From a bacterium (lineage in GTDB: Bacteria > T1Sed10-126): a stretch of DNA of 64,000 nucleotides. The notes below the pieces were generated by a model. It had not been told where the DNA came from. It made no database searches and worked only from the letters and a program-made list of their open reading frames with translations. The position numbers and the translations under genes are program-made. Positions 38,204 to 46,817 of this stretch are shown one piece after another (position 1 is the stretch's first letter; every line of letters begins with the position of its first letter). The stretch spans positions 1 through 64,000 of the forward strand of contig PWHN01000044.1 in the NCBI GenBank assembly GCA_003554945.1. Reading direction: 5' to 3'.

Positions 38204-38896
38204 ATGGAGTTCATGGCCCTACAAACAGAGGATTTTGATTTTCTCGCTTTTTTATTGCTCATGGGACCGCTTGAAGAGGGATTAGCTGATGAGCTGAAAC
38301 AGCGTGTAGATAAGATAGCGGAGGCCAGTCCGGAGAAAAATGCTCTGGCGCTGGACGTTCGTGGTATCAGCGAGGTAACGACAAATGCTGTGAAAGAATT
38401 CAAGCTAATTCGTGACATAGTAAATGAGAAAGGCTGGGACTTTTATCTCTGCAACATCCCTCGGCTTTTGCAGCCAAAAATATTAAGAAACGAAAAAAAC
38501 CGCGATGAATTAAACGTCTTCGCAAGCCGCGAAAATTTATTTTCACACCTGGAAGAGATAGAATCCAGCAAAATAAGCGTGACACCGGATCCATTACCGG
38601 TAATCGTTCGGACACCTGAAGGTGTAAGACTATTACAGGGGCAGGCTGTCGACCTTTCCGGTGATTACCTATATGTGCAGACAACAGACAAAAACGCCCT
38701 GGCTTTCAAGATGAAAAGAAAACAGCCGGCTGAAATTTCTTTCGAGACGAACAAATTTCAGATTCCACCCAGAGAGGCTCTCATACTGGATTCTAAAACA
38801 AAAGAAGAGGGGAAAGGTTTTCTGCTGACAGTTGAACTAACTGAGCTGCTGGAGCAGGATCTTGAACTGCTTAATAATTATTTCAGTCCTCGCTAA
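38204..38896 (+). CDS. STAS-like protein with possible PilZ-like C-terminus
   Basis: ALALDVRGISEVTTNAVKEFKLIRDIVNEKGWDFYLCNIP resembles STAS; RBS before ATG. Confidence 0.45.
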   Translation: MEFMALQTEDFDFLAFLLLMGPLEEGLADELKQRVDKIAEASPEKNALALDVRGISEVTTNAVKEFKLIRDIVNEKGWDFYLCNIPRLLQPKILRNEKNRDELNVFASRENLFSHLEEIESSKISVTPDPLPVIVRTPEGVRLLQGQAVDLSGDYLYVQTTDKNALAFKMKRKQPAEISFETNKFQIPPREALILDSKTKEEGKGFLLTVELTELLEQDLELLNNYFSPR

Positions 38897-40104: not shown

Positions 40105-43083
40105 TCAGTATGCCTTCACCTGGTACTGGTTGAAACCAAGCTCTTCCGTCAGTCGCTTGGCAATAAATTTGACGTAATTGTCAATATTCTTGTAATTAAC
40201 GTATTTAAATGATTTTGCGTCAAATTTGGGGTTAAATTTGGGCTGACAGGACGCGGCGCGCGGGTGACCGCCATCACGGTGCGTCCCGAGAGCACGGGCA
40301 GCATCGTTCAGGTTTAAAATTTCCTCCTGATCCATTACGTTACGCATCAATAGATTGCCCGGTGAAATGGAGTAGAAAAAGTAATCCATTGGATACTTAC
40401 GCCGCAGATGGGCAAGAGCGAGCGGGAAGGAGAGATCAGGCTCGTCCTGCTCACTCCATACGGAGTCGGTAAAGCATATACTGACTGTTCCATCGTCACC
40501 GGCTAGCTGCATGTTATAAACGTTACGGTCAAGACGTTTCAACACGTCCTCCATGTTTTCTTCTAATTCATCTGGATATTGCTCACGCAGCTCAACCAAC
40601 TCCAGACCGGTAACATCGCAGACAGTTTCAAGAATATAGTAAAGATATTCGGCGAAGTTACGGTCCGAGACGTTATCAAAACGCTCTTTGGGGAAGGACG
40701 GGTTATTCTCCGGCGAGCCCGTCGCAGCAGCTGCGTGCCCACCATCGGCGGGGCTACCAACCTTACTGACCAGATTGCTCAGATCAATTATGAAACCTTC
40801 TTCGTTCACACGACGGGTTGAAAACAGGAAGGAACCGTAGGCATAAAAGTAGTAGTCGATAGAGTAACGCTTGGTCAGATAATTAAGGGCTGATGCGACG
40901 TTAATTGTCGGCTCGCCGAGCTTCTGATTACAGAACGGGGAGAGAGCCGAATAAATATTTACGTCCTGACCGGGTCCGGACGCATATAGTTCCTTATACA
41001 GTTGCTCTTTTCCCTTCTCGCCGGCTGTCATGAGCTCCAGCGGATGTAAAAATTTGCGCATCCCCACATGCTCAGCGTAATCACCGTCCTCAGGCGGCTC
41101 AACCAGGTGAATATGAAATAGCGTCTTCTCCACCCGGGGCAATACTTTTTCCAAACCGGCCTCGTATTCAGCAACAACCTCGTCCCAGCCCTGCCGGGAC
41201 ATGATCTCTTTCATCTCCAACTCATTTTCTACGTTCATAAGCGCCTGAACCATCTCAATTTTATTGTAAGAGGAGCCGATCAGCTTTGAAATTTCGATAG
41301 CCAGCTCAGACTCGCGAATGTGAAGGTCCTGGACGTGAGCTTCCGCTCGTAAACGGCTGAGACCAGAATTGTCGGCGGCCGTTCCTTCCACGAATTGTTC
41401 GTAAATAAGGTCGGCCCCACACTTCTGCTCTTCTATCGGCATCTCCTCGCCCTGGGGCAGGCTGGAGAGAACAATGTCTTCCACAATCAGCCCCTCTTCC
41501 TTAAGCCCCTGCAGACGTTCAAGGACGGCCGGCTCATAGGGGTGGTGATCGTCAATCCGGATCAAACGAACGTCCTTCTCGGCCAGATAACGAACATGTT
41601 CTTCAATAAGATCGCAATTGATCTCAATCGCCCGCTCCTCCCGCAGGCCCTCACCGGACTCAATTTTTTCCTTATTTGCTGAGGCATCAGAAGTTACTTC
41701 TCCACTGCTACCTTTTACGTATTCAACCAGTCTAAACTCAGCCGAGTCAGGGGAAGGGTGTTCGTCAAAATAATTCTCACTGAGCTTCAGATTTTCAGGA
41801 AATGTCAGAAAATCAAGGTCGTTGTGGGTTACCGCGATACCAAACTCGTCCGGACTGATCCCATCGTGATTTAGCTTGACCTCAACGGTTCCGTCCTCGG
41901 CGGTGGGAAGGGCAAGACTATTAAACTCATCGCCTGCCTCTTCCGGACGGGAAAGCGTGACCTCGCCTTCTGTAACGTTAACCACCAATTCTATGTCAGA
42001 AACCGGGCGGCCAGACGCTGACTCGGAGAGCTGTACAATCAGACGGTCTTCCAGCGGCTGGTGCTGTTCCAACATCCAATCGTAAGATAGACCCTCCCAG
42101 AGTTCGTGCAGAGCTTTCATGTGGGAGTGTATTTTCTTGACGTTAGGATTTTCAGGATTGGCCTGCTGGATTTTATCAACCAGCTCGTAAAATTCAGATA
42201 CTGGACCAAGCATAGTAGAGCGCAGAACCTTCAACCAGTCCAGCAGGTCCTGCAGCCCCGCCTCGTCAAGTTCGTCGTTAATGTTACGAGTCAAGAGCGC
42301 TGTTGATACATAGACGGAAATCCCTTCAACCAGCACTCCCAGAAATTGCTCGTGCCAACCTAAACGTCCTTTGCAGGCAAAGTCATACCCGGCAGCGTCG
42401 TTTAATAGAAGACGTTCATGAACTTTATCCTGGGGTAGCTCATCGAGCAGGTCACGTTTCATGGTAGAATCCAGAACCTCTTCCAGTTCTCGAGCCGCCG
42501 CCTCAAAATCTTCGCCAAACATTTTTTGACCGAGAAGCTCCATTACCTCTTCCTCGCCGCCGTCACCTACAATCTGCTCGGCGGCTCCGGCCAGGATACC
42601 CGCATAATGAACCGTTGACCAAATTTCAAAAAACTGGCGATCACTATTAATTTTGTCCATCTGTTTGTTCAGGTCGTTAAAAGCCGCTTTCCAGTGATCG
42701 GGAAACACCTCAGAATTTTGATAAAATAATTTCCGTAAATTTTCTTTTTCTTCATATAGCCGGCGGCGGACCTCAGCTTCGTCCTCACGTTTCATACGTC
42801 TTAATTCCAGCCGGGGAGGCAGAGCATCAATCGGAAAGTCAGGCAGATAAACGTCGCAGCCTTCGTGGATGTCGAGGTGTCGGATTCCCTCTGAATAATT
42901 GACAAAATCAAACTCAAAATCCTCACCATATACCGGTTCTCGTCCCTCTTCTTCCTGAAAGTGGTTCTTAAACCAGGCACCGTAGAAAGCATTGGAACCG
43001 ACCGTGTCCAGGTCACCACCCGATTCTTTACCCAGTCCTTCTTTTTCGCCCGCTCCGTGAATCACAAAAATCTTCTTGCGCAT
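40105..43083 (-). CDS. 992-aa multidomain protein with DHH/DHHA1-like phosphoesterase motifs
   Basis: VTHNDLD (~aa 418-424), INCDL (~aa 488), IDDHHPYE (~aa 510); duplicated C-terminal DGGHAAAATG and DGGHPRAAS motifs. Confidence 0.7.
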   Translation of the reverse strand: MRKKIFVIHGAGEKEGLGKESGGDLDTVGSNAFYGAWFKNHFQEEEGREPVYGEDFEFDFVNYSEGIRHLDIHEGCDVYLPDFPIDALPPRLELRRMKREDEAEVRRRLYEEKENLRKLFYQNSEVFPDHWKAAFNDLNKQMDKINSDRQFFEIWSTVHYAGILAGAAEQIVGDGGEEEVMELLGQKMFGEDFEAAARELEEVLDSTMKRDLLDELPQDKVHERLLLNDAAGYDFACKGRLGWHEQFLGVLVEGISVYVSTALLTRNINDELDEAGLQDLLDWLKVLRSTMLGPVSEFYELVDKIQQANPENPNVKKIHSHMKALHELWEGLSYDWMLEQHQPLEDRLIVQLSESASGRPVSDIELVVNVTEGEVTLSRPEEAGDEFNSLALPTAEDGTVEVKLNHDGISPDEFGIAVTHNDLDFLTFPENLKLSENYFDEHPSPDSAEFRLVEYVKGSSGEVTSDASANKEKIESGEGLREERAIEINCDLIEEHVRYLAEKDVRLIRIDDHHPYEPAVLERLQGLKEEGLIVEDIVLSSLPQGEEMPIEEQKCGADLIYEQFVEGTAADNSGLSRLRAEAHVQDLHIRESELAIEISKLIGSSYNKIEMVQALMNVENELEMKEIMSRQGWDEVVAEYEAGLEKVLPRVEKTLFHIHLVEPPEDGDYAEHVGMRKFLHPLELMTAGEKGKEQLYKELYASGPGQDVNIYSALSPFCNQKLGEPTINVASALNYLTKRYSIDYYFYAYGSFLFSTRRVNEEGFIIDLSNLVSKVGSPADGGHAAAATGSPENNPSFPKERFDNVSDRNFAEYLYYILETVCDVTGLELVELREQYPDELEENMEDVLKRLDRNVYNMQLAGDDGTVSICFTDSVWSEQDEPDLSFPLALAHLRRKYPMDYFFYSISPGNLLMRNVMDQEEILNLNDAARALGTHRDGGHPRAASCQPKFNPKFDAKSFKYVNYKNIDNYVKFIAKRLTEELGFNQYQVKAY

Positions 43084-43262: not shown

Positions 43263-44339
43263 ATGGGTTTAAAAATACAGTTCACCGGTTTGCTTGCCAG
43301 CCCGACGAGCTGGGCACGGGTGGGCCGGGGTATGTTATCCCGACTGACGGCGGTCGACGGAATTGATCTGAAGATTAAACCGACCCGGGGAAAGCTGTGG
43401 ACAAAAGACTTTCCCCTGCCGGCTGAAATTAAGACAGCGATTGGTGAGTGGCGAACACCCGATTTCGAGCTGATGTTTGCCTACCCACCGCTGCTGAAGA
43501 AATATCACGGCAAGAAGACTCGGCTCTGGAATTTTTCTGTTTATGAACCCAGCCGACTTCCCGTTTCCTGGGTAGATCCGCTCAACAGAGACTGCGAGCG
43601 TGTGTTGGTTCCTTCTCGCCACAACTACAACCTCTATCAAAAAAGTGGCGTCCGGGAAGAACAACTGGAATTAATTCCTTACGGCTACTCCACCCGGCAT
43701 TTTCCGGAATCACTTCCCTGGCCGGAAGATGAACAGTTAAATATTTTGACCGTGGCCACTCCACACTACCGCAAGGGCCTGGACGTTTTGTTGGCCTCCT
43801 CTGATCTATTGACAGAAAAACAGCTTCACTGGCAGGTACAGTTGCCTTACGTACCCGCAGAGAAAAAGACTGAATTCTGGGAAGACGGGGAGATCAGAAA
43901 AAAACTGGAGACGGCCGGTTTTGACGTCCGGGTGGGTAGACTGTCGGATGCCGAAATAACAGAGTTATACAGGAGGACTAACCTGCTGGTTCAACCGAGT
44001 CGCTCGGAAGGCTTCGGCCTGGCAATACTCGAAGGGATGGCGGCCGGGCGACCGGTAGTGACAAGCAACTGGGGCGGACAGCTCGACTTCGCCGGCCCGG
44101 GAATGATTCGCATCGAGGGCCAACTGCGTCCGGCGCGTGACTGCCAGTATGATGAAAAGCATCCCGCCGCCAAGGTTTTTGAACCGGACAAAGATGATTT
44201 CCGGCATCAGCTTATTCAGCTTCTCGACAGACCCGATGAGCTAAAAGAGCTGGGCCTGCAGGCACGAAAAAGCGTCCGGGACTTCACCTGGAAAAACGCC
44301 GCAGATAAGCTGGCAAACCTGCTCAAACAATCGTATTGA
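43263..44339 (+). CDS. Group 1 (GT4-like) glycosyltransferase
   Basis: NLLVQPSRSEGFGLAILEGMAAGRPVVTSNWGGQLDF. Confidence 0.93.
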   Translation: MGLKIQFTGLLASPTSWARVGRGMLSRLTAVDGIDLKIKPTRGKLWTKDFPLPAEIKTAIGEWRTPDFELMFAYPPLLKKYHGKKTRLWNFSVYEPSRLPVSWVDPLNRDCERVLVPSRHNYNLYQKSGVREEQLELIPYGYSTRHFPESLPWPEDEQLNILTVATPHYRKGLDVLLASSDLLTEKQLHWQVQLPYVPAEKKTEFWEDGEIRKKLETAGFDVRVGRLSDAEITELYRRTNLLVQPSRSEGFGLAILEGMAAGRPVVTSNWGGQLDFAGPGMIRIEGQLRPARDCQYDEKHPAAKVFEPDKDDFRHQLIQLLDRPDELKELGLQARKSVRDFTWKNAADKLANLLKQSY

Positions 44340-44529: not shown

Positions 44530-44838
44530 CTAAACACTAACTGCTTCGTCAGCGTTAAGTTCAACCGTGTCAAAAGTATAGACTTTGCGCAGGTCTTTCG
44601 TAATTTCCCAGACACAGCTAAGCCCTTCGGGGAACTGCACGACGTCGCCGGCTTCGGCCTCAATACTCTCGTCGTTCGGCAGGTGAATTATAACCTCGCC
44701 TTCGATAATATACCCCGTTTCAGTCGAAGCATACGACCAGTCGAACTTGCTGGCTTCCTTCGACCAGGGCGACCAGGAATCTATTCCCAGCTCCTCTTTT
44801 CGAGCCTCATCAATTTGTTTTTCAACTTTCACTTCCAT
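44530..44838 (-). CDS. Small cupin-domain protein
   Basis: ETGYIIEGEVIIHLPNDESIEAEAGDVVQFPEGLSCVWEI. Confidence 0.85.
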   Translation of the reverse strand: MEVKVEKQIDEARKEELGIDSWSPWSKEASKFDWSYASTETGYIIEGEVIIHLPNDESIEAEAGDVVQFPEGLSCVWEITKDLRKVYTFDTVELNADEAVSV

Positions 44839-45182
44839 CACAAACACCTCCTTTTTTTGTAACTACTCATCTATCCCCTCTCCTCTCCCCCATTTGCCTT
44901 TCCCCCCTTCAAGGGGGGGAAATAAGGTGAGTAGTTACTTATTTTAATGCTTTTGGCTGATAATTTTATCTTTTTAGAAGAATTTTCCAAGCTAATTTTT
45001 ACAGAGGTCAAAACCTTACAGAAGAGTTTCTTGATTTTTCCTTCTCCACCTCCAGTAGATGGGGAAGGCTCCGGCCGGTTCTGTCCGAGGCTCGTAGACG
45101 ACCGGGATGAAAATTTTAGCAACAAGTGGTATAATTTTATTTCAAGTAATAAATTGAATCTTTATAAGGTGAGGTGTAAATT

Positions 45183-45356
45183 ATGGTCAAAGTAGACAAA
45201 GAGCTCTGTACGAGCTGTGGTATCTGCGTGGACAGCTGTCCGGTGCAAGCGATAGAGATGGACGGCGACGACCTGGCTGAAATCGACCAGGACATCTGCG
45301 AGAACCACCAGGTCTGTATTGACGTATGTCCTGTCGACGCTATCGCAGAGGAATAA
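45183..45356 (+). CDS. 2[4Fe-4S]-type ferredoxin with variant second cluster motif
   Basis: Not in ORF track; MVKVDKELCTSCGICVDSCPVQAIEMDGDDLAEIDQDICENHQVCIDVCPVDAIAEE*; GAGGTG RBS upstream. Confidence 0.9.
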   Translation: MVKVDKELCTSCGICVDSCPVQAIEMDGDDLAEIDQDICENHQVCIDVCPVDAIAEE

Positions 45357-45371
45357 TCGGATTAATTAGAG

Positions 45372-45412
45372 GGCAGCGCTATCAGACGGTTAACCCGTTC
45401 GATAGCGCTGCC
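45372..45412. terminator. Hairpin between convergent ferredoxin and ferritin-like genes
   Basis: GGCAGCGCTATC ... GATAGCGCTGCC 12-bp perfect arms. Confidence 0.8.
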
Positions 45413-45424
45413 TGTTTACAAGAC

Positions 45425-45916
45425 TTACTTAACCTGCTTTAGCTTTTTAGTCAAAGTAACCAGGTGGTCTTTCTCCTCTTCAATAATTTTCTCAACTTTT
45501 TCTCGCCCGTATTCCGCCGGCACATTGTCAACAATCTCCCGGTAAAAAAGAATAGTATCCTTCTCCATCCGCACACCGGTCTTGAGTATGTCAGCGAGAG
45601 ACTCTTCACCGGTCAACTGTTTGGTCGCAGCAGGATCACCCTCACCGCCGTGTGAATCGGCCATTGCCTGCAGAAAAAGGTCAACCTCGCCGTCGGGATC
45701 AAAACCGGTTGCGCCGACTGCACTACCGCCAAGAGATTCACGCATAGCGGAAAAAGTCTTGACGTGGTCGTCCTCCATTTCGGCCAGTTTGACAAGAAAA
45801 TCATACTCACCCGCCGCCTCGTTAAGTTCGGCGGCGCGACGGTAAAACTGGGCGGCGTTCTTCTCAATTTCTACGGCAAACTCAAAAATCTCATCTGCTT
45901 TAAAACTGATACCCAT
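45425..45916 (-). CDS. Ferritin-like/rubrerythrin-type diiron protein
   Basis: MGISFKADEIFEFAVEIEKNAAQFYRRAAE...EEEKDHLVTL; start at internal ATG. Confidence 0.85.
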   Translation of the reverse strand: MGISFKADEIFEFAVEIEKNAAQFYRRAAELNEAAGEYDFLVKLAEMEDDHVKTFSAMRESLGGSAVGATGFDPDGEVDLFLQAMADSHGGEGDPAATKQLTGEESLADILKTGVRMEKDTILFYREIVDNVPAEYGREKVEKIIEEEKDHLVTLTKKLKQVK

Positions 45917-45920
45917 GCTA

Positions 45921-46439
45921 TCAGTCCTCCTCACCGGGAATTTGAAACATTGGCGGTCGCGCGGCAAACTCACGATCCAACATCATTAACCCGCGCGGAT
46001 CGTCGCCTGCCATCTTTAACTGCTGCACAAGCTCGTCGGCTGAATCTTCCTCTTCTACCTGTTCTTCAACAAACCACTGAAGGAACTGCCGGGTGGCATG
46101 ATCGCCTACCTCCTCCGCCAGATCAACCAGCTCGTTGATAAGACTGGTTACTTTCTGTTCGTGTTCAAACGTGGTTTCAGCTACGTCCAGGGCAGAATCC
46201 CACTCAACCGGCGGCTTTTCTATCTCATCAAGAATTACTCGCCCGCCCCGCTCCTGGACATAATTTTGGATTTTCATCGCATGAACCGCTTCTTCCTGGG
46301 CCTGGATCTGCATCCAGTGTGCAAAGCCGCTTAAATTTTCCTCTTCCAGATAAGCGGACATCGACAGGTAAAGGTAAGAAGAGTAAAGTTCGGCATTAAT
46401 CTGTTCGTTCAACGCCTCTTCGACTTCAGTTTTAAGCAT
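45921..46439 (-). CDS. Ferritin
   Basis: LNEQINAELYSSYLYLSMSAYLEEENLSGFAHWMQIQAQEEAVHAMK. Confidence 0.95.
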   Translation of the reverse strand: MLKTEVEEALNEQINAELYSSYLYLSMSAYLEEENLSGFAHWMQIQAQEEAVHAMKIQNYVQERGGRVILDEIEKPPVEWDSALDVAETTFEHEQKVTSLINELVDLAEEVGDHATRQFLQWFVEEQVEEEDSADELVQQLKMAGDDPRGLMMLDREFAARPPMFQIPGEED

Positions 46440-46442
46440 TCC

Positions 46443-46817
46443 TTACGACCTCCAGAGACCGTGGACGTTACAATGTTCACGGGCGCTTACTTCTTCAGCG
46501 TCTACTTCGAACTTAGCCACCGGCTCATCTCCCGGTTCCAGATACTGCTTACAGCTCTTGCCGTCAGCGGTTAACTCTATCCACTCGATGTAGTGAGCTT
46601 CTTCCATCGGGTGAATCGTGCTGCCTACTGTAACTTTGTAACCACCTTCAATCTCTTCTATTACGGGCACGTGTTTCTCCGTCGTATAATCGGCCGTCTG
46701 TTCTTCCAGCAGCTCCATCGGCTGGCCGCAGCAGACAAGCTGTCCTTTGCCACCTCGCAGCACTTCGACAATATTGTCGCAGAGCTCACAGGCGTAAACT
46801 TCAGAGCGTTTCGCCAT
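46443..46817 (-). CDS. dfx: Desulfoferrodoxin (superoxide reductase)
   Basis: [61 protein letters not shown]. Confidence 0.97.

Follow-up and report, generated by a model that had tools for sequence, protein, structure and literature searches.

A branch of DHH/DHHA1 phosphoesterases with a split catalytic domain and tandem DHHA1-like modules

A 992-aa protein encoded in the first 64,000 nucleotides of contig PWHN01000044.1 (assembly GCA_003554945.1; this whole stretch is referred to as the window) represents a genuine branch of the DHH/DHHA1 phosphoesterases, which is undescribed as far as our searches show. Its unusual feature is a split catalytic domain, i.e. an insert of ~400 aa, composed in sequence of helices, an Ig-like sandwich and an acidic linker, interrupts the DHH domain. 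The biochemistry is probably conventional, whereas the architecture and the distribution are not. Enzymes of the DHH/DHHA1 class cut small nucleic-acid pieces or nucleotides, and the superfamily controls nanoRNA and cyclic-dinucleotide turnover. To this superfamily the protein adds an unannotated branch that is invisible to current profile libraries.

The ORF starts with ATG and is read from the minus strand, while the plus-strand reading is rich in stops according to the ORF list and translation. A preliminary description of this DNA was right about the reality of the 992-aa ORF, its coordinates and all quoted peptides; the strand, however, is minus. A sister genome of the same taxonomic family carries a full-length orthologue (64% identical) with the same neighbours, and full-length relatives with 30-37% identity occur in other phyla. 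Since full-length copies recur in this way, we regard the ORF as a conserved coding gene. The signals found in a promoter/terminator scan were not above those of shuffled sequences. At least 23 loci were recovered from 85,462 species genomes; the number is a lower bound because two peptide patterns served as queries and the window's own genome was possibly excluded. All loci are located in MAGs, among them MAGs titled or classified as Elusimicrobiota, Auribacterota, Lindowbacteria, Muiribacteriota, Spirochaetes, Hydrogenedentota and the PVC group. As 10 of 386 sampled genomes carry members, the family is rare and patchily distributed.

By comparing compact and split members in an alignment we re-read the active-site motifs (Table 1). 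The alignment (n=23) together with the AF2 secondary structure gives the motif order DxD (I), D (II), DHH (III) and D (IV) on a Rossmann-like domain, with the core strings GGDLDT (aa 22-27), PDFPID (aa 81-86) and DHHP (aa 512-515) in the numbering of the window protein. In the N-terminal part, K4, I8, H9, G10, G22, G23, D24, L25, D26, T27, Y79, P81, D82, P84 and D86 are invariant in 23/23 sequences, and the same applies to D512-H513-H514-P515, C555-G556, Q585-D586-L587 and D780-G781-G782-H783 in the later part. The mean column conservation is highest in the first part of the DHH domain (0.77), followed by DHHA1 module 1 (0.67) and the second part of the DHH domain (0.65); the Ig-like segment (0.52), module 2 (0.49), the helical insert (0.43) and the linkers (0.26-0.32) are lower. 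In one respect motif I is atypical: H9 of beta1 sits 15 residues from D24, whereas the usual His-to-Asp distance in DHH proteins is about 4.

Table 1. Features of the split DHH/DHHA1 gene, with positions in the window
Feature	Coordinates	Strand	Evidence
Split-DHH/tandem DHHA1 protein, 992 aa	40105..43083	-	ORF, translation, full-length relatives
DHH domain, first part (aa 1-96): beta1 with H9, motif I, motif II	42796..43083	-	conservation 0.77; AF2 Rossmann-like beta-alpha-beta order
Motif I, GGDLDTVGSN (aa 22-31)	42991..43020	-	D24, L25, D26, T27 invariant (n=23)
Motif II, DVYLPDFPIDAL (aa 77-88)	42820..42855	-	Y79, P81, D82, P84, D86 invariant (n=23)
Insert, helical part (aa 97-343)	42055..42795	-	AF2 all-helical; conservation 0.43; missing from compact relatives
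Insert, Ig-like beta-sandwich (aa 344-432), contains VTHNDLD	41788..42054	-	seven AF2 strands; weak coherent profile matches
Acidic low-confidence linker (aa 433-483)	41635..41787	-	pLDDT <50 over aa 441-481; conservation 0.26
DHH domain, second part, and helical linker (aa 484-655)	41119..41634	-	conservation 0.65; holds motifs III and IV
Motif III, IDDHHPY (aa 510-516)	41536..41556	-	D512, H513, H514, P515 invariant (n=23)
Motif IV, QDL (aa 585-587)	41323..41331	-	Q, D, L invariant (n=23)
DHHA1 module 1 (aa 705-836), DGGH aa 780-783	40576..40971	-	GGH 23/23; profile match to NrnA GGGH region, single-test P=5.8e-4
DHHA1 module 2 (aa 837-992), decayed copy, DGGH aa 937-940	40108..40575	-	homology to module 1; GGH 1/18

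The DHH motif at aa 512-514, noticed in the preliminary description, is motif III and is invariant in the 23 relatives. The same description had taken VTHNDLD for motif I and INCDL for motif II, a placement that we reject for poor conservation. VTHNDLD occupies a position in the Ig-like domain, and its D422 and D424 vary among 18 aligned relatives (VTFDDLN, VTYDGLH, ITFNELN); D491 of INCDL is replaced by Q, A or L in the same set. The invariant acids are instead D24, D26, D82, D86, D512 and D586. In the DHH enzymes pApase and NrnA, the metal ligands are two Asp of motif I, one Asp of motif II, a His of motif III and an Asp of motif IV (PMC8268124).

This degree of conservation bears on the possibility that the protein is a catalytically dead scaffold, standing to active enzymes as Cdc45 stands to RecJ and using the helical insert as a docking surface. 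The DHH domain of Cdc45 also bears a helical insertion (L118-S197), which appears poised for partner binding (PMC4873980). Yet that insertion comprises only ~80 aa, and Cdc45, a protein of the eukaryotic replisome, has lost catalytic motifs through inactivating changes in three of the four (PMC4873980), whereas all catalytic residues of the present family are invariant in 23/23 members. We therefore consider a dead scaffold very unlikely.

An AF2 model of the window protein built from six sequences (mean pLDDT 72.9) places beta1, an alpha helix and two beta strands, with motif II at the tip of the last, ahead of helices at aa 102-340 and seven strands at aa 347-429. A low-confidence linker follows, and a helix and a strand then lead into motif III. 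The preliminary description had the first ~400 aa as an unrecognised half, possibly a sensor or effector preceding the catalytic domain. Such a separate half is not supported, as aa 1-96 already form the start of the DHH fold and the rest is an insert between motifs II and III. What stands of the claim is the helical part, aa 97-343, which gave no match to known families and thus has no assignment; aa 344-432, on the other hand, appear Ig-like. The helical domain of the window protein has a net charge of -22, and the linker is acidic as well (-7; family median about -10).

The Ig-like assignment is weak but coherent, and it derives from the predicted sandwich and a set of individually faint matches. 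In Pfam, Big_1 matched weakly in 7/18 members (best E 0.0047) and Filamin in 6/18 (0.01), each below significance, and among PDB chains there were weak filamin, intimin and transthyretin-like matches, none of them significant alone. The likeness to Big_1 and filamin repeats lies in the pattern G-x-x-V-x-G-I-x-I ... T-D-x-x-G-x-A and in the sandwich topology of aa 344-432. However, those repeats belong to surface or cytoskeletal proteins, whereas the putative Ig-like domain is embedded in an apparently cytoplasmic enzyme. A search of one literature collection revealed no paper that unites a DHH phosphoesterase, an Ig-like domain and an insertion, an absence that constitutes weak evidence.

Profile libraries do not recognise the window protein: searches against Pfam, NCBIfam, PADLOC and PHROGs gave no significant match, the closest being a weak PHROG hit to 'DHH phosphoesterase' at aa 500-645 (E=0.094). 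For the 23 members, Pfam and NCBIfam returned nothing significant except the N-terminal GYF_2 domain of one class B relative (see below). PF01368 and PF02272 were reached at the curated cut-off by 0/23 members, and scans of the window's own genome also miss the gene. Thus, it is correct, as had been supposed, that the protein belongs to no curated family, DHH and DHHA1 models included. Searches of PDB sequences with phmmer and with family profiles yielded only noise, in the latter case from helical bundles. A role in anti-phage defence was dropped, since PADLOC gives no match.

In view of these failures one could argue that this is not a DHH protein at all and that its DHH and GGH strings arose by chance. 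We find this hardly credible, as it is contradicted by fold-search matches in the PDB and in a viral library, by the invariance of every motif and by a bridging homologue. The latter is P0007, a 376-aa protein encoded in a class B genome (L091:511-1641, minus strand), which matches the family profile with E=7.3e-5 and a class B member with E=2.0e-11. Its GGGH region in turn gives a weak Pfam DHHA1 match (E=0.011), and the protein bridges the gap between the family and known DHHA1 proteins. Genome G208 encodes a copy of P0007 with 45% identity. In profile-profile alignments (hhalign) the GGH of the family core falls in register on the NrnA GGGH (P=0.0023; module 1 alone, 5.8e-4) and the family DHH in register on the RecJ DHH (P=0.01), all single-test values from shallow profiles.

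For the fold searches, a compact relative (L029, 441 aa) was modelled by AF2 from 23 sequences with pLDDT 91.5 and pTM 0.82. Foldseek against the PDB returned five chains with E<0.001, all with probability 1.00: two chains of 7d62 (PggH), 7yor (RecJ2 with dCMP) and both chains of 6mtz, an H. pylori 'uncharacterized protein' that is the best PDB match. The TM-scores are moderate, 0.26-0.42 by query and up to 0.58 by target. In the viral structure library there were 11 matches with E<0.001; the named ones are DHH/DHD phosphohydrolases, the phage AR9 NrnB and a RecJ, and the others are unnamed or 'uncharacterized'. All significant matches of known identity are therefore DHH proteins, which, together with the invariant motifs, supports the proposed DHH/DHHA1 membership. 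The full-length window model found nothing with E<0.001 in the PDB (best 6mtz, E=1.9e-3). This is probably due to the insert breaking the structural alignment.

Three layouts can be distinguished. Class A members (L029, L033, L009/L032) are compact, with 386-441 aa in which a contiguous DHH domain is followed by DHHA1, and they lack the class C insert. Class B (L028:9185-11281, L031:1505-3361) has an insert of ~187 aa that separates beta1 'IIHG' from motif I 'GGDLDT'. In class C, the layout of the window protein (n=18, from several little-studied phyla), D86 of motif II is separated from D512 of motif III by 392-425 residues, and one or two further DHHA1-like modules are present, a C-terminal extension that classes A and B lack. 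In the phylogenetic tree, a branch with support 92/99 sets class C apart from the other members, and another (89/82) does so for class B; the root is unresolved because the sole outgroup is very distant. Between the inserts of classes B and C no similarity was detected (hhalign P=0.52). The catalytic domain has thus acquired inserts at two different sites, one before motif I and the other between motifs II and III, and the two have no detectable similarity. This makes the family a natural experiment in the acquisition of regulation by DHH enzymes, for which the compact members provide a natural control. The Lindowbacteria-type genomes G028 (L024 and L032), G175 and G312 encode a class C protein and a compact class A member together. 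A mobile or phage origin was also considered and rejected, as tblastn with a compact relative as query found no match in phage or plasmid records.

The two tandem DHHA1-like modules reported for the carboxy-terminus are present and homologous to each other (BLASTP E=5e-18; hhalign E=1.6e-30), and module 3, a further copy in class C, is homologous to module 1 (hhalign E=2e-13). It is important to note that GGH is found in all 23 first modules but in only one of 18 second modules, that of the window protein; its nearest relative, the orthologue of the sister genome, has GGN. Since GGH is invariant in module 1 and almost always lost from module 2, the extra modules are decayed duplicates, and the second GGH of the window protein is an exception within a decaying copy. 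The idea of two working GGH substrate modules is not supported, because the second lacks the His in 17/18 sequences, including the GGN relative.

Tandem DHHA1 copies could in principle provide an extended binding track for a general exonuclease acting on longer RNA or DNA. A precedent is NrnB, which acts on 2-4-mers but can also process long RNA when it carries a C-terminal extension; in clade A this extension is required for the long substrate (PMC12709177). Modules 2 and 3 are slightly positive (median net charge +5 and +3), whereas the catalytic domain and the insert are acidic; the fold match 7yor is a RecJ2 nuclease; and in Elusimicrobiota, pnp (recognised by eye from the sequence) occurs in the region around the gene. 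However, GGH is lost from the extra modules, pnp is linked to the gene in a single group of related genomes and nowhere else, classes A and B do without the extension, and the NrnB clade A extension has not been reported as DHHA1 copies (PMC12709177). On balance, an exonuclease of this kind seems rather doubtful.

We favour, as the probable explanation, a divergent soluble DHH/DHHA1 phosphoesterase family whose split domain would carry out metal-dependent cleavage of short oligonucleotides or dinucleotides, while the insert would regulate access or partners. In this scenario, the chain opens the Rossmann-like DHH domain with beta1-H9, D24/D26 and D82, leaves it for the excursion of ~400 aa through the helical domain, the Ig-like domain and the acidic linker, and re-enters it so that D512-H513-H514 and D586 complete the active site. 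A helical linker then connects to the DHHA1 domain, whose DGGH loop may hold the substrate. D24, D26, D82, H513 and D586 would bind two divalent metal ions (probably Mn2+), which would activate water for phosphodiester cleavage in short RNA or DNA oligonucleotides or in linear or cyclic dinucleotides accommodated in the DHH-DHHA1 cleft. Membership of the superfamily makes a nucleotide or an oligonucleotide plausible as the substrate. The insert emerges from a loop that connects two catalytic motifs; it may control how the substrate enters or provide a docking site for a partner, and the extra DHHA1 copies may mainly serve as binding surface or structure. The computations show the fold class, the order of the motifs, the split, the three layouts and the decay of the extra modules, whereas catalysis, metal, substrate and insert role are what we infer. 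Points against the explanation are the lack of a significant Pfam/NCBIfam DHH or DHHA1 model, the moderate TM-scores, the lack of full-length model matches with E<0.001, the His-D24 spacing of 15 and the lack of a conserved neighbour indicating a substrate.

A specialised nucleotide-signal hydrolase, acting on pGpG, pApA, c-di-AMP or something rarer and using the insert as a sensor switch in the manner of PggH, GdpP or the CRISPR-associated NrN, is a possible but unlikely alternative. The closest characterised PDB match by E-value is indeed the pGpG-specific phosphodiesterase PggH from Vibrio cholerae (7d62; E 1.2e-6, probability 1.00, TM 0.58 by target against L029). The window genome also encodes a separate NrnA-sized enzyme, which argues for a specialised job of the split protein. 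Diadenylate cyclase and GGDEF proteins are encoded in 9/9 carriers tested, but as the cyclase is found in 11/14 and GGDEF in 8/14 control genomes, this co-occurrence says little, and the conserved neighbours include no signalling gene. An allosteric version, in which the Ig-like and helical domains between motifs II and III would sense a ligand or partner whose binding assembles or opens the active site, perhaps for a novel nucleotide of candidate phyla, strikes us as quite improbable.

PggH shares with the family the order DHH then DHHA1 but has only 294 aa, too short for the insert or extra DHHA1 modules, and is about 9% identical in the structural alignment. NrnB nanoRNases (COG2404) have a core of ~300-400 aa with DHH and GGGH and include H. 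pylori NrnB and the strong structural match from phage AR9; they differ in having no such insert, in GGGH versus the family's DGGH and in an identity of about 10%. NrnA, a 2-4-mer 5'-3' RNase, is a contiguous DHH-DHHA1 protein of ~320 aa and thus differs in layout. GdpP, which hydrolyses c-di-AMP, consists of membrane helices, PAS and GGDEF followed by DHH-DHHA1, whereas the window protein has no PAS or GGDEF match in Pfam and starts directly with the DHH domain. RecJ, a 5'-3' ssDNA exonuclease, combines DHH-DHHA1 with an OB domain, and the DHH-linker-DHHA1 fold of RecJ and archaeal RecJ2 is shared by the compact relative (7yor, probability 1.00). RecJ is not known to have a comparable insert between motifs II and III, and profile-profile comparison identifies the segment behind DHHA1 module 1 as another DHHA1 copy and not as an OB fold. 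Since four other DHH proteins of the window genome exceed the Pfam cut-off (330 aa, NrnA-sized; 586 aa, RecJ-sized; 474 aa; 901 aa), the window protein is not the only DHH enzyme of this genome.

Gene neighbourhoods are not conserved, and no conserved neighbour points to a substrate. An M20 peptidase gene lies 49 nt downstream on the same strand and a divergent GT4 glycosyltransferase gene upstream, a pair common only to the window genome and its sister; the Elusimicrobiota members have a common block of their own. A hypothesis of an operon or system was rejected, as no neighbour cluster spans the phyla. Pfam GT4-conflict also scores for the glycosyltransferase (43263-44339, plus strand; E=3.5e-15), though the ordinary glycosyltransferase model ranks slightly higher. 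A 230-aa protein with no Pfam match is encoded at 38204-38896 (plus strand), flanked by the M20 peptidase and a MobA-like NTP transferase. Finally, the region 44530-46817 (minus strand) encodes desulfoferrodoxin, ferritin, a rubrerythrin-like protein and a EutQ-like cupin, an oxygen/iron stress block that is also present in the sister genome.
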